DNA of 47,503 nt from positions 42,604 through 90,106 of the forward strand of contig CACYKF010000007.1 of NCBI GenBank assembly GCA_902774905.1, given 5' to 3'. The notes under the pieces are model-generated. The model saw only the letters and a list, made by a program, of their open reading frames with translations, was not told where the DNA came from and ran no database searches. Positions 18,288 through 24,495 of the stretch are shown here, one piece after another. This DNA comes from an uncultured bacterium. Lineage in GTDB: Bacteria > Cyanobacteriota > Vampirovibrionia > Gastranaerophilales > Gastranaerophilaceae. Made by a program: the position numbers and the translations under genes. Positions within the stretch are counted from its first letter, which is position 1, and the number at the start of each line of letters is the position of its first letter.

Positions 18288-20426
18288 ATGAAAGCGGTAA
18301 AAACTAAACTGATAACCGCATTTACACTTGCGGAACTTATGGTCATAATGGCGGTTATGACTGTGGTTCTTGCTGCTGTTGCTCCTATTTTCACATCAAG
18401 ATACTCAAATATTGCGCTTGATAATGTTTGGGGCTCTGTAGGGGCAAGTAATATGAATGATATTTATACTGATGCTCCGATTCGTTCTATGCTTCAGCAA
18501 ACCTTAATCGGTATTACACCGATTGATTTAGAAGATATTAGAAGAACATATCAGCCGTATTCAAAACTTATTATCCGCTCAGGAAATAAAATTGGCGGTA
18601 ACAAACTTCAAAAACAGATTGAATTTAGATATAATGGTACAAAGTATGGCTATTTGTTCGCAGGCAATTCTAATCTTTTATTGGGAAGTAATTATAACAA
18701 TTTAAGTTTTACTTATGTTCAGCCTGATTTAAATGATATTACCGCAATGAAAATCGGTAGCGGCGCAATGGGGAATACTGCTCTTGGCAGAAATGCTTTA
18801 GATTCTCTTACATCTGGTATATATAATACTGCATTCGGATTTGAGGCTTTGAAAAGTTTAACAACAGGCAGCGCAAATACTGCACTTGGTGTCGGGGCTG
18901 GTTCAAGTCTTACGACAGGCATTGGTAATGTATTTGTCGGTCGTAATTCTTATAATGCTGCAACCGGTGATTATAATACTATTATCGGCAATAATACTAC
19001 ATCAAAATCAAGTACAAGTAATTATACAACAGCAATCGGAAATAATATCAATGTCAAGGGGGATTACAATGTCGCAATAGGTGACAGTTCCAATGCAGGC
19101 GGATATTATAACACCGCAATAGGTTATGGCGCATTACTTTCAGCAAATCCGACAGGTGATTCATATTCAAATTTCAAATACAATACAGCAATCGGTTATA
19201 ATGCTTGTAAAGGTATAGGTTCTTCATCTCAATATACAACATGTATTGGCGGTTATGGTGTTGATACTTCTGCCATGGGTTCTACCGCACAATCATTTTT
19301 TACTGATTCAAAAGAACGTGTTCTTATCGGCAGGCCAACTTCTGCATTTAACGGAGCGGCAACTTTAGAAGTTCATAATCTTACATCAGCAGGCAGCAAA
19401 TACCCGTATCCGAACGGTATCAGCGGAGCACCCAATTTAGGTGATTCATCAGTTGTGGTAAACGGCAATTTGATAGTCAGAGGTCAGACATATATGGTTG
19501 GGCGTTCCCCATTTCCTATGACACCCTCTGCATCTGTAAATACTTATGCAAATACTATTTCTTTAATGGGATATAAGTTATACAAAGAATCTGCTCTGAC
19601 GCATAAGCCATTGATTGGTTATGACGGAAGCGAATTTACCCAAAGAATTAAAAATGCCCAAAGTTATATGCGTGAGGCATATACAGGCAGAGAACATTGT
19701 ATTTGTAATTACTCTTGCTCAAATTCGACTAAAGATTATGCCGGAGGTTCAGGTTATTCAGGGCGAGACTCTTATGATTGGTCATACTTGGCATTTAAAA
19801 ATTACAACAATATCATAGATAATTCTTTTGGCGGTTACAATTATTTTTGGGGGCACTCACCCCACAAATGCGGATCTTCTTATAATGATACCGCTTATAC
19901 CTCTGCCAATATAGAACTTGATGGAGGTCATAATCTTACTGACGGGGGAACAAATTCTGTTGCTACACAGTTGATTACGGGGGGATCTTGTTGCCCTATA
20001 CTTACTCCTGTAGGTATAAGGCGAACTGATGACTTATCAGCAGGTGTAACAAGTGATTTACGGCTTAAAAATGTTGGTCAGCCATTTGAAAAAGGATTAG
20101 AATTTTTATCTAAACTAAAAGTTTATAATTTTACTTTTAAAAATGATAAACAAAAAGTTCATCAGGTAGGTGTTATCGCTCAGGACTTAAAACGCATATT
20201 CCCTGATTCCGTTTCAAAAGACGAGAAGGGATATTATAAAATACGCAGAGATGAAATGTTTTATTCTGCCGTAAATTCTGTTAAGGAATTATATGAGAAA
20301 ATTTCTGATTTAGCAAAAAGGGTTGTAACTGATGTTGAGCGAATTGTCATTCTGAAAAAAGAAAATAAAATGTTGAAAGATAAATTAATTATGTTATCAA
20401 AAGAACTTGATAATTTAGAGAAGTAA
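18288..20426 (+). CDS. Prepilin-like protein with tail-fibre repeats and C-terminal S74 self-cleaving chaperone (paralogue B)
   Basis: 712 residues, the longest of the three. Leader MKAVKTKLITA precedes FTLAELMVIMAV (Glu +5, Ala at -1) and the helix ends APIFTSR. The repeats are the clearest of the family (about 160-340): TALGRNAL, TAFGFEAL, TALGVGAG, TAIGNNI, VAIGDSS, TAIGYGAL, TAIGYNAC, about 14-22 residues apart, much like YadA-type head repeats. The block RVLIGRP, ATLEVHN, SVVVNGNLIVRGQTY is shared with both paralogues. Unique to this copy is a segment of about 150 residues (430-580) rich in Cys, Tyr and Gly (HCICNYSC, SCCP). S589 of SDLRLK starts the S74 domain (VGVIAQDLKRIFPDSV) plus coiled coil; 124 residues would be released. 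Translated with paralogue A, ending at a strong terminator. Confidence 0.8.
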   Translation: MKAVKTKLITAFTLAELMVIMAVMTVVLAAVAPIFTSRYSNIALDNVWGSVGASNMNDIYTDAPIRSMLQQTLIGITPIDLEDIRRTYQPYSKLIIRSGNKIGGNKLQKQIEFRYNGTKYGYLFAGNSNLLLGSNYNNLSFTYVQPDLNDITAMKIGSGAMGNTALGRNALDSLTSGIYNTAFGFEALKSLTTGSANTALGVGAGSSLTTGIGNVFVGRNSYNAATGDYNTIIGNNTTSKSSTSNYTTAIGNNINVKGDYNVAIGDSSNAGGYYNTAIGYGALLSANPTGDSYSNFKYNTAIGYNACKGIGSSSQYTTCIGGYGVDTSAMGSTAQSFFTDSKERVLIGRPTSAFNGAATLEVHNLTSAGSKYPYPNGISGAPNLGDSSVVVNGNLIVRGQTYMVGRSPFPMTPSASVNTYANTISLMGYKLYKESALTHKPLIGYDGSEFTQRIKNAQSYMREAYTGREHCICNYSCSNSTKDYAGGSGYSGRDSYDWSYLAFKNYNNIIDNSFGGYNYFWGHSPHKCGSSYNDTAYTSANIELDGGHNLTDGGTNSVATQLITGGSCCPILTPVGIRRTDDLSAGVTSDLRLKNVGQPFEKGLEFLSKLKVYNFTFKNDKQKVHQVGVIAQDLKRIFPDSVSKDEKGYYKIRRDEMFYSAVNSVKELYEKISDLAKRVVTDVERIVILKKENKMLKDKLIMLSKELDNLEK

Positions 20427-21151: not shown

Positions 21152-22426
21152 TTATATACAACCTAATCCGCAGGAAGTCGCTCTTTGTTTAAGTTCTTCT
21201 GCTTTGTCTGTCAATTCCCATGGAACATTTATATCAGTTCTGCCCATGTGACCATAAGCAGCAAGTAACTGATAGAACTTACCGCCGTTTTTCTTTGGCA
21301 GATTTCTTAAATCAAATTTATTGATAATTCCTGCAGGTGTAAGGTCAAATGTCTTTGAAACAAGCGCAGAAAGTTCTTCATCAGAAATTTTACCTGTTCC
21401 GAATGTATCAACCATAATTGACAAAGGCTCAGCAACACCTATTGCATAAGCAAGTTCAATTTCGCATTTTTCAGCCAATCCTGATGCGACAATATTTTTA
21501 GCAACATAACGAGATGCATAAGCAGCAGAACGGTCAACTTTCGTTGGGTCTTTTCCTGAAAATGCTCCGCCACCATGTCTTGAATATCCGCCATAAGTGT
21601 CAACTATAATTTTTCTTCCTGTTAAACCTGAATCGCCCTGAGGTCCGCCGATTACGAATCTCCCTGACGGATTAATTAAAATGATTGTATCGGCATCAGG
21701 TTTTATGTCACAAGACTCAAATACATAGTCGATAACAAGTCTTTTAAGATCATTTTTGATTATTTCCTGTACTTTTTCATTGTCAGCAATTCCGTTTATG
21801 CTTGGGTTATGCTGAGTTGATAATAGGACAGTGTGTATTCTAAACGGTTTACCGTCTTTGTATTCAACAGTTACTTGTGATTTCCCGTCAGGTCTTAAAT
21901 AATCAACAAGTCCTTGTTTTCTGACCTGAGCAAGTCTGTACGATAATTTATGCGCCAAACTGATTGGTAAAGGCATAAGTTCAGGTGTTTCGTTGCAAGC
22001 ATAACCAAACATAATACCTTGGTCACCTGCGCCAAGTTCTTCGGTTTCAATAATAGATGTATCTGCATTATTAGAACGAGATTCAAATGCCTTATTGACA
22101 CCGTTACCAATATCTGTAGATTGTTCGTCAATGCTTGTTAATACTGCACAAGTATCGGCATCAAATCCGCCGGAACAAGTCCCTGTATAACCAATATTTC
22201 TAATAGTATTTCTTACAACTTCAGGAATATCTACATAGCAATCTGCAGTAATTTCACCGCAAATTAAAGCCATACCGGTTGTCACTGTTGTTTCTGCCGC
22301 AACTCTTGAACGGTTATCTTTTGATAAAAATTCATCTAAGATTGCATCAGAAATCTGATCACATACTTTGTCAGGGTGTCCTTCTGTTACGGACTCAGAG
22401 GTAAATAAAAAGTTTTTTCCACTCAT
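21152..22426 (-). CDS. metK: S-adenosylmethionine synthetase
   Basis: 424 residues, slightly longer than the usual 380-400. MetK makes S-adenosylmethionine from methionine and ATP as a cytosolic tetramer. The sequence starts [23 protein letters not shown] (ATP-binding region near the N-terminus). The signature [12 protein letters not shown] is at about 130-141, the P-loop-like [17 protein letters not shown] at about 280-296, and [21 protein letters not shown] marks the middle domain. A TAAGGAG ribosome binding site is 8 nt before the ATG and can pair with an upstream loop (see 22435-22481), suggesting translational control. It is monocistronic, placed between the two sets of prepilin-S74 genes; no functional link to them is evident. 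Confidence 0.95.
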
Positions 22427-22434
22427 TTTTCATT

Positions 22435-22481
22435 CTCCTTAATTTCTATCTGCCGGTAAGGTTTTTAATTCCGACCCGGCA
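22435..22481 (-). promoter_or_regulatory. metK leader: candidate H-type pseudoknot covering the ribosome binding site
   Basis: Read on the minus strand, TGCCGG (22481-22476) pairs with CCGGCA (22456-22451) as a 6-bp stem with a 19-nt loop. The last five loop bases, CCTTA (22461-22457), are complementary to TAAGG (22441-22437) of the metK Shine-Dalgarno. Stems would stack with no gap; the crossing loops are 14 nt and 9 nt, the latter A-rich. This matches the compact riboswitch layout of SAM-II, SAM-V and preQ1-I, but I do not recognise their conserved bases. Confidence 0.4.
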
Positions 22482-22512
22482 CTACGCTACTTTTTATATA
22501 GTGTAATATAAA

Positions 22513-22540
22513 CGCTTAATTTATTCAAATAAATTAAGTG
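22513..22540 (-). terminator. AT-rich hairpin downstream of prepilin-S74 paralogue C
   Basis: CTTAATTTATT and AATAAATTAAG are perfect 11-bp arms around a 2-nt loop, with one further C-G pair beyond a G-T wobble. It lies 29 nt past the paralogue C stop. With no G/C core and only a weak T stretch it is a poor terminator; it might be a dyad binding site near the metK promoter. Confidence 0.35.
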
Positions 22541-22568: not shown

Positions 22569-24362
22569 TTATTTATTTTTCAATTTGTTAACTCTTGCTG
22601 TCAGCAAATCTACCTGTGTTTTGAGTTTAGAATTCTCTTTTTCTGCTTCTGTTATTTCTTTTTCAAGAGAAATAATACTTTTGGTTAATGAAACAATTTT
22701 TTCGTTTAATTCTTTAATTGAATTAATAACAGCATAAAACATTTCATCAAGTTTAATTTTAAGAAAACCGTCGTCACCTTTAAAGACCGAATTAGGAAAT
22801 ACTTTTTCTAAATCTTGGGCTATTACACCGACATGACGCTTTTGTTTTTTGTCGTTTTTAAATTTGTAGTTATAAACTTTTAATTGTTTTATTTTATCTA
22901 ATCCGTTAGTATTTTTTGATAAAATATTTTTTAATCTTCTGTCACTTGTTATAGGTTCAAGTGTGGCACATTCTCCTGCATTAGAAAAATTATAAGTAAT
23001 TTGATTTGCGGCACAACTTACATCTTTATTTGTGCCAAATATATTATTTTGATAATAAAACGGGTATAATATATTCCCTATTGTAAAATATGTTTTGCCT
23101 CTCACAATCAGATTCCCGTTAATTATTGTTGTTGCATTTGACTGAATTACGGGGTTATTAATCAGTTTGTTATTCCCATAACCTCCGGAATTATGAATTT
23201 CCAAAACTGCATCTCCACCATATCTTCCTGAAGATTTCCAAGTACTGTCAGTCAAAGAATTATTTTTATTATTAAGGTTTGGATTAGAACCAATGTATGT
23301 TCTTGGCGTAGCATCATTTTTATCAAACGCAAGTTCTGTGTTTACAGGAGTATTAGAAGCAGGTCCTGAATTTGCACCAATACATGTTTTATAGGACTGT
23401 CCTGTAATCCCTGCGCATGCATTGTATCCTATTGCAGTATTGTACCCACCTGTTGTAAGGGCTCCTAACGCTCCTGAACCAATTGCAACATTATATTTAC
23501 CTGATGTAACACTACTTAATGCTTTATAGCCGACAGCAACATTATATTGGAAATCTCTGCTACCCTCACAAGTAGGACACTCATCTCCAAAACCTGTGTA
23601 TGCACCGATAAGTGTGTTATAATCACCTGTCAATGACTGCGAATGATAACCTATGAGCGTACTAAAACGAGTTTCTGCTTCACTGCCTGCGTCATAACCG
23701 ATAAAAGTATTATTGTATCCGGCAAGGTTAGCATATCCGGTTCTTGCCCCAATTGCGGTGTTATCGTCGCCCGAATATGTATTTGGCAATGAATCGTTAC
23801 CAAAAGCGGTATTATTATCTGCTTTTGAATTAATATCATTATAATCTTTTATTCCATTCATTGCATTAAAACCAAAAGCAACATTGTTGCTCGGATATGT
23901 TGTATCGCTTTCTTTTCTTTGAAGCATAGGGAAATTAGCCCCAAACAGCAAGTTTGTATTATCTGCAATAAATGTAGCAGCTAATTGTCCCGGGTCATTA
24001 AAATCATTTCTGCCATATCGCAGTTGTAATTGACGCTGTATAAGATTATTTGCAACATAACCGGAGCGAATAATAACTTTAGATAACGGAGTATAAGATG
24101 ATTTAATATCATTTTCGGAATCAGGGGTGGTACCTATATATATACCACCTAAATAATTGTCGGAAATCGGTTTGTAATATGTATTCATTGGTCCTGCCAT
24201 GTAATTACGGCTTGACCACATCCAAAATTCCTGTTTTGCTGCTGAATTTCTTCTGCGTTTTGTTACAAAAGGTGCAAAAGCGGCAAACAATATCGTAAGT
24301 ACCAAAAGTACAATCATAACTTCTGCAAGTGTAAATGCAGGTTTTTTCTTTGTTCGTGTCAT
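22569..24362 (-). CDS. Prepilin-like protein with tail-fibre repeats and C-terminal S74 self-cleaving chaperone (paralogue C)
   Basis: 597 residues. I choose the ATG at 24362 (MTRTKKKPA|FTLAEVM) because GGGAG lies 5 nt upstream and the leader then has prepilin length; the open frame begins 27 codons earlier without such support. Glu at +5, Ala at -1, hydrophobic helix ending APFVTKRRR. Repeats (about 150-350) include VAFGFNAM, TAFGNDSL, TAIGARTGY, TFIGYDAG, TLIGYHSQ, VAIGSGAL and TAIGYNAC. The block TYIGSNP, AVLEIHNSGGYG, TTIINGNLIVRGKTYF matches paralogues A and B. The S74 domain starts at S473 in SDRRLK with HVGVIAQDLEKVFPNSV, and ends in a coiled coil; 125 residues would be released. It is transcribed alone, opposite in direction to A and B. 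Confidence 0.8.
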   Translation of the reverse strand: MTRTKKKPAFTLAEVMIVLLVLTILFAAFAPFVTKRRRNSAAKQEFWMWSSRNYMAGPMNTYYKPISDNYLGGIYIGTTPDSENDIKSSYTPLSKVIIRSGYVANNLIQRQLQLRYGRNDFNDPGQLAATFIADNTNLLFGANFPMLQRKESDTTYPSNNVAFGFNAMNGIKDYNDINSKADNNTAFGNDSLPNTYSGDDNTAIGARTGYANLAGYNNTFIGYDAGSEAETRFSTLIGYHSQSLTGDYNTLIGAYTGFGDECPTCEGSRDFQYNVAVGYKALSSVTSGKYNVAIGSGALGALTTGGYNTAIGYNACAGITGQSYKTCIGANSGPASNTPVNTELAFDKNDATPRTYIGSNPNLNNKNNSLTDSTWKSSGRYGGDAVLEIHNSGGYGNNKLINNPVIQSNATTIINGNLIVRGKTYFTIGNILYPFYYQNNIFGTNKDVSCAANQITYNFSNAGECATLEPITSDRRLKNILSKNTNGLDKIKQLKVYNYKFKNDKKQKRHVGVIAQDLEKVFPNSVFKGDDGFLKIKLDEMFYAVINSIKELNEKIVSLTKSIISLEKEITEAEKENSKLKTQVDLLTARVNKLKNK

Positions 24363-24495
24363 CAGTACTCCCATATCCGCTGTATAGTTATTATTATAAC
24401 ACATTTTATTCTCTATTTCAATTATTACAATAATGCGTAACATATTTTATTTTTGTGATAATCTTTTAATATAAACAGTTAAAAGAGGAAGAAAT

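Follow-up and report, generated by a model that had tools for sequence, protein, structure and literature searches.

The metK gene of gut Gastranaerophilales, which encodes S-adenosylmethionine (SAM) synthetase, is preceded by an element that is almost certainly a real cis-regulatory RNA without an Rfam family, and that very probably controls metK translation through the Shine-Dalgarno sequence. By analogy with other metK leaders, it is probably a SAM-type riboswitch; in its likely form, it would be a compact H-type pseudoknot that turns translation OFF, presumably upon sensing SAM, resembling the SAM/SAH riboswitch without being a member of that class. With somewhat less assurance, we favor an undescribed, independent class of SAM riboswitch with a core of ~45 nt, which would have arisen in gut Gastranaerophilales and in which the Shine-Dalgarno strand would form one half of a ligand-gated helix, while GUYGG(A) and AUU would make up a new SAM pocket. 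The kind of riboswitch is known, and the class appears new.

The element was recognized in a 47,503-nt stretch of genomic DNA from an uncultured bacterium, the whole of which is called the window here. On the minus strand, the metK leader reads TGCCGG-GTCGGAATTAAAAA-CCTTA-CCGGCA-GATAGAAAT-TAAGGAG (Table 1). A preliminary description of this site had proposed a 6-bp stem whose loop ends in a CCTTA that directly abuts the 3′ stem strand and complements TAAGG of the metK Shine-Dalgarno sequence, with crossing loops of 14 and 9 nt, and the leader sequence bears out each of these features. A coaxial geometry of 6+5 bp arose in 32 of 40,000 dinucleotide shuffles of the leader, and a relaxed version of 5+4 bp in 917 of 40,000; as such arrangements do occur in shuffles, the single sequence is only suggestive and the comparative evidence decides. 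By plain single-strand folding, with a program blind to pseudoknots, the leader has no exceptional stability (z = -1.28). The window belongs to the Candidatus Gastranaerophilales: of the ten named proteins closest to its MetK (L002 to L011, 79 to 86% identity), several come from metagenome-assembled genomes of that name.

Table 1. Features of metK and its leader in the window.
Feature	Position	Strand	Remarks
metK, S-adenosylmethionine synthetase	21152..22426	(-)	three S-AdoMet synthetase domains
Whole motif in metK leader	22481-22437	(-)	GC stem, CCUUA at loop end, UAAGG in Shine-Dalgarno
P1 5′ strand TGCCGG	22476..22481	(-)	inner 5 nt form the conserved core; covariation
Loop 1 GTCGGAATTAAAAA	22462..22475	(-)	GUYGG, then A, then A-rich part of variable length
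Putative P2 5′ strand CCTTA	22457..22461	(-)	CTTA kept in 142/142
P1 3′ strand CCGGCA	22451..22456	(-)	pairs with TGCCGG; covariation
Loop 3/linker GATAGAAAT	22442..22450	(-)	A-rich
Putative P2 3′ strand TAAGG	22437..22441	(-)	overlaps Shine-Dalgarno
AUUAAGGA	22443-22436	(-)	same in 142/142 unique sequences
metK Shine-Dalgarno AAGGAG	22435..22440	(-)	leader sequence
Proposed promoter TTGAAT (22528-22523), 17 nt, TACACT (22505-22500)	22500..22528	(-)	by eye

An initial set of 95 unique motif sequences (116 copies) was extended by 60 further loci to 142 unique sequences (176 copies). Counting outward from the inner GG/CC pairs of P1, which do not vary, pairs 1, 2 and 3 are standard in 142, 142 and 135 of the 142 sequences (419 of 426 cells together), exceeding all 2000 shuffles, whose maxima were 139, 135 and 114. 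Pair 1 occurs as CG or UA, pair 2 as CG, GC, UA or UG, and pair 3 as GC, AU, UA or GU; illustrative examples are the stem variants GCGG/CCGC (L147, L189), UCGG/CCGA (L193, L198, L202) and CUGG/CCAG (L182, L211). Further out, pairs 4 to 6 do no better than chance, and the sixth pair of the window leader (T-A), paired in 67/142 and thus no more often than after shuffling, is unconserved. An alignment of 52 rows (A2), which omits long-linker members and in which MAFFT misaligned L209, has 98.9% of P1 cells paired and two-sided changes in 3 of 5 pairs; shifting the partner by 1 to 3 columns reduces the paired cells to 12 to 58%, and RNAalifold recovers the stem unaided. On a tree of MetK proteins (137 rows), the three variable pairs changed at least 2, at least 5 and at least 20 times. 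P1 is therefore real: the lack of covariation among related metK leaders that would have spoken against the preliminary description does not apply to this stem, for which compensatory changes were found.

The second helix, P2, calls for a different kind of argument. CUUA, which abuts the 3′ strand of P1, is unchanged in 142/142 sequences, and so is AUUAAGGA; this invariance is partly imposed by the regular expression used for the motif, which requires CTTA and TTAAGG. Forty loci picked by covariance-model score instead (L172 to L211) all have both CTTA and TTAAGG, as do 60 of 60 further model-chosen loci, with the caveat that strongly altered P2 variants could escape a model that has learned from such sequences. 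In L204, a contig end cuts the leader just before P1, and the remainder of the motif is present. The P2 strands are complementary but invariant at every position, so that among the 142 sequences there is zero covariation and support for P2 comes from conservation and geometry. We consider this pairing, and with it the masking of the Shine-Dalgarno sequence, supported but not proven. A fifth pair (C-G) would be limited to the 97/142 sequences that have C as the loop base, and the conserved core, as read from the sequences, is a 5-bp P1 plus a predicted 4-bp P2. UUAAGG occurs in 0/23 motif-less metK leaders of the lineage (UAAGG in 4/23) and in 2 of 27 window genes, metK among them; being this rare, AUUAAGG departs from the ordinary ribosome site here. 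In the 2-Mb genome, AATTAAGGAG has 10 occurrences and its reversed control 15.

Conservation extends to bases outside the two stems. Loop 1 begins with GUYGG in 142/142 sequences, followed by A in 141 and G in one, whereas the rest of the loop differs in base identity and in total length (9 to 15 nt) right beside the unchanged CUUA; with regard to the U:A.U triples of the major-groove triplex around SAM in SAM-II/SAM-V, most members have UU within loop 1, and L209 is without a U after GUCGG. The Y of GUYGG and the base before CUUA combine as C/C in 87, U/A in 35, U/C in 10 and C/A in 10 of the 142, a correlation that a tertiary contact might produce, but tree-corrected pairs reach only a median p of 0.125, and this suggestive signal was given no weight. 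From their invariance, GUYGG and AUU look like parts of a ligand pocket. They also bear on the idea of a constitutive or temperature-sensitive structure that merely adjusts how well metK is translated or how stable its mRNA is: a weak P2 across the Shine-Dalgarno sequence could conceivably melt with temperature, yet a 4-bp, A/U-rich helix would require neither the invariant GUYGG loop nor AUU. Gut hosts are, moreover, near-isothermal, and we regard such a thermosensor as very unlikely.

Loop 3, which links P1 to the Shine-Dalgarno sequence, has 8 to 17 nt in most members, 8 nt being the minimum, and reaches up to 87 nt. Longer linkers are present in 26/142 sequences, and nearly all of the 25 inserts inspected fold into a hairpin with an A-rich tail behind it. 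This minimum length, the long linkers and the variation of loop 1 beside CUUA count in favor of P2. Such hairpin inserts were seen in L003, L142 to L149, L179, L180, L184 to L186, L192 and L201, as well as in L316 to L318, L320, L321 and L323 to L326; in one group, the stem of the insert itself seems to covary (GGAU/AUCC, GGGUU/AACCC).

As for the level of control, the best -10 match in 95 relatives peaks 20 to 24 nt before P1, which would place the mRNA start some 10 nt before P1; the promoter proposed for the window leader, from which the mRNA would start about 12 nt before P1, was not called by a consensus promoter scan. A scan of the leader found no terminator, and this, together with a pseudoknot predicted to cover AAGG, points to an action on translation. 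The leader thus shows what is generally expected of a translational riboswitch, namely, a conserved structured leader at one gene, a complement to the Shine-Dalgarno sequence and no terminator. With a plausible promoter just upstream, P1 might alternatively be viewed as DNA, that is, as an inverted repeat GCCGG-N19-CCGGC serving as the operator of a metK repressor. We give this reading hardly any credence: the half-site spacing varies (loop 1 plus CUUA, 13 to 19 nt), the half-sites change into different complementary pairs around an asymmetric, strictly conserved loop, and the linker accepts hairpin inserts. By eye, an A/T-rich inverted repeat, CTTAATTTATT-TGAA-TAAATTAAG, follows the upstream gene at 22513-22540 and overlaps the proposed -35 element.

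Within its genus, the motif pattern is present in 45/46 genomes and the reversed control pattern in none; the single genome without the motif likewise yields no metK. A covariance model built from 32 sequences (R1) has matches at E up to 0.1 in 168/239 family genomes and 29/41 genera. Those in genus g36 (E 0.02 to 0.04) and in G063 (E 2.6e-4, preceding another gene) we ascribe to chance, which leaves about 27 to 28 of the 41 sampled genera as real. In an order sample, 204/286 genomes match, with only four, weak matches outside the family (E 0.013 to 0.068). With a broader model (R2), 142/289 genomes of a class sample match at E 0.01 and 132/386 of a phylum sample at E 0.001, all of them, among the matches listed, in the same family. 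The three samples overlap, and stricter filters make the large ones lose weak matches; across order, class and phylum samples, no convincing match was found outside one Gastranaerophilales family. Spread by viruses was considered and discarded: a loose pattern occurs in 87 viral-contig stretches, and rescoring of 80 loci with R2 left one match (E 0.04).

The motif is tied to one gene as strictly as it is to one family. Each of the 95 initial sequences lies before metK, as established by script for 94 of them and by reading for L007, and the same holds for 60/60 further loci. Second matches in 27 family genomes and 2 genomes of other families were considered, and seven places were read. Two, L214 and L215, are contig ends of the same genome (G101), both with a metK leader; L212, before a gene resembling a sugar-phosphate etherase by eye (E 2.6e-4), and L213, L217, L218 and L219 look like chance. 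Not counted was a degenerate second leader copy (L141 1040-1083, contig G045:C4) which has neither a Shine-Dalgarno sequence nor metK. In L007 (1444-1510), the leader is followed by a metK with ~20 extra N-terminal residues. Of the 137 rows of the MetK tree, 37 fill less than half of the MetK columns. On this tree, most of the family sample carries the motif, while the earliest-branching group is without it; its presence changed at least six times with the cut leaders L091 and L204 as unknown, and eight times with both as absent. Allowing for weakly supported forks, the pattern is in keeping with an early gain and some later losses, such as those in L012/L166/L168, L169 and L170. Some of the 23 motif-less metK leaders in and near the lineage are nested inside the motif-bearing clade, and there the element is dispensable.

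The preliminary description had been unable to match a known class, and this holds against Rfam 15: there are no gathering matches in the window or in 18 divergent members, and a search relaxed to E 10 brings up nothing beyond families at chance level, both for the window leader and for seven divergent members. Specifically, models RF01727, RF00521 and RF01826 give no match in that relaxed search or, at gathering cut-offs, in the 18 loci. One lax score, to the L31-Coriobacteria leader (RF03128; 16.1 bits, below the cut-off of 33; E 2.4), falls on exactly this site. As RF03128 is a ribosomal-protein leader, and since protein-bound leaders, too, have a stem with an invariant loop at the Shine-Dalgarno sequence, one might suppose that a protein, either MetK or another RNA-binding regulator, locks the pseudoknot in place of a small ligand. 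We rate this as improbable; the score is at chance, did not recur in seven other members, and metK is no ribosomal protein gene. Nor are we aware of any MetK binding to the leader of its own mRNA. In the literature searched, with subscription papers and preprints mostly outside its scope, we found no regulatory RNA of Gastranaerophilales/Melainabacteria, and nothing on the metK motif in work on SAM-VII, metK candidate riboswitches or new-RNA surveys; the available part of a 50-genome survey (PMC11109978) does not mention metK.

Among named riboswitches, SAM/SAH (RF01727) comes closest. According to the accessible portions of two papers, it is a conserved element right upstream of Rhodobacterales metK (PMC2864571) and an H-type pseudoknot with a P1 hairpin, a Shine-Dalgarno sequence in the pseudoknot helix, coaxial stacking and a variable linker (PMC7367207). 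Both are single-lineage elements directly upstream of metK with, on our reading of P2, much the same layout, including an AUU (A43-U44-U45 in SAM/SAH) before the Shine-Dalgarno strand. However, in SAM/SAH, the same excerpts show the pseudoknot strand set apart from P1 by U23 and three loop-proximal pairs, whereas here P2 would abut P1, and the core sequence here is GUYGG(A)...CUUA. SAM-II and SAM-V are H-type pseudoknots, as our candidate would be. SAM-V, as described in part of PMC6061858, is translational and occludes the Shine-Dalgarno sequence in a 2-bp P2a extension, whereas here that sequence would lie in P2 itself. SAM-Chlorobi (RF01724) is another lineage-specific conserved RNA at metK, but it is also found at ahcY and, according to PMC2864571, gave no sign of binding SAM or SAH when probed in-line in preliminary work; linkage to metK is therefore no proof of a SAM sensor. 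The metK motif has no Rfam match to it. The preQ1-I riboswitch (RF00522) is a similarly tiny H-type pseudoknot with an A-rich third loop. It differs in that it serves different genes and has bases between P1 and P2, where the metK motif would have none, and there is no Rfam match.

SAM is our best guess for the ligand since MetK makes SAM and since SAM/SAH, in the portions of its literature available, shares the layout at metK elsewhere. Of the SAM-responsive pseudoknot put forward in the preliminary description, the conserved RNA able to form an H-type pseudoknot at the ribosome binding site of metK, the covariation of P1 and the strict linkage to metK stand, while ligand, pocket and direction of control are proposed from gene context and analogy. 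According to this proposal, the P1 hairpin would form after transcription and leave the Shine-Dalgarno sequence free. Abundant SAM, or SAM and SAH alike, would then bind a pocket made of GUYGG(A) in loop 1, AUU and the P1/P2 junction, stabilizing a weak P2 of 4 to 5 bp (CUUA with UAAG) stacked on P1; the stabilized P2 would hide AAGG from the ribosome, and less MetK would be synthesized. Short leaders that use SAM to mask a Shine-Dalgarno sequence have been described for SAM/SAH, SAM-V and SAM-VI in the sections available of PMC7367207, PMC6061858 and PMC6914780. Because SAM is inferred solely from the gene, the same switch might respond to another ligand of the pathway, such as methionine, SAH alone or a SAM-derived polyamine, and a spermidine riboswitch has been reported as a close variant of a SAM aptamer (PMC10853860, in part). 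We nevertheless think this unlikely, given that metK, the enzyme of which makes SAM directly, is the only gene to which the motif is linked, and that SAM/SAH and SAM-VI, both of them switches in metK leaders, respond to SAM or SAM/SAH, as far as the excerpts of these sources go.

SAM control has already been solved by several unrelated RNA folds. If our reading of the metK leader as a SAM riboswitch is true, a further fold of about the size of SAM/SAH would be a case of convergent aptamer evolution in a relative of the Cyanobacteria that is mostly uncultured, and would provide a very small natural SAM sensor usable for engineering. Within the literature searched, the metK motif would be the first regulatory RNA found for the order.

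Several neighboring observations deserve mention. Two Peptidase_S74 (endosialidase chaperone) proteins are encoded near metK (18288-20426, plus strand; 22569-24443, minus strand), the latter also with a weak N-terminal methylation motif. SAM-I (RF00162) is found neither in the window nor in genome G000; its 9 copies are spread over 7 of 78 family genomes, and the loci of eight were read without one of them being at metK. These eight (L220 to L227, from G021, G072, G056, G104, G086, G118 and G108) score 55 to 64 bits against a cut-off of 44.4 and have no methionine genes downstream. They are followed instead by two protein kinds without a Pfam match and by an N-formylglutamate amidohydrolase (Pfam FGase, 2.2e-41, L220), in a mobile-looking neighborhood, with three copies in G021.
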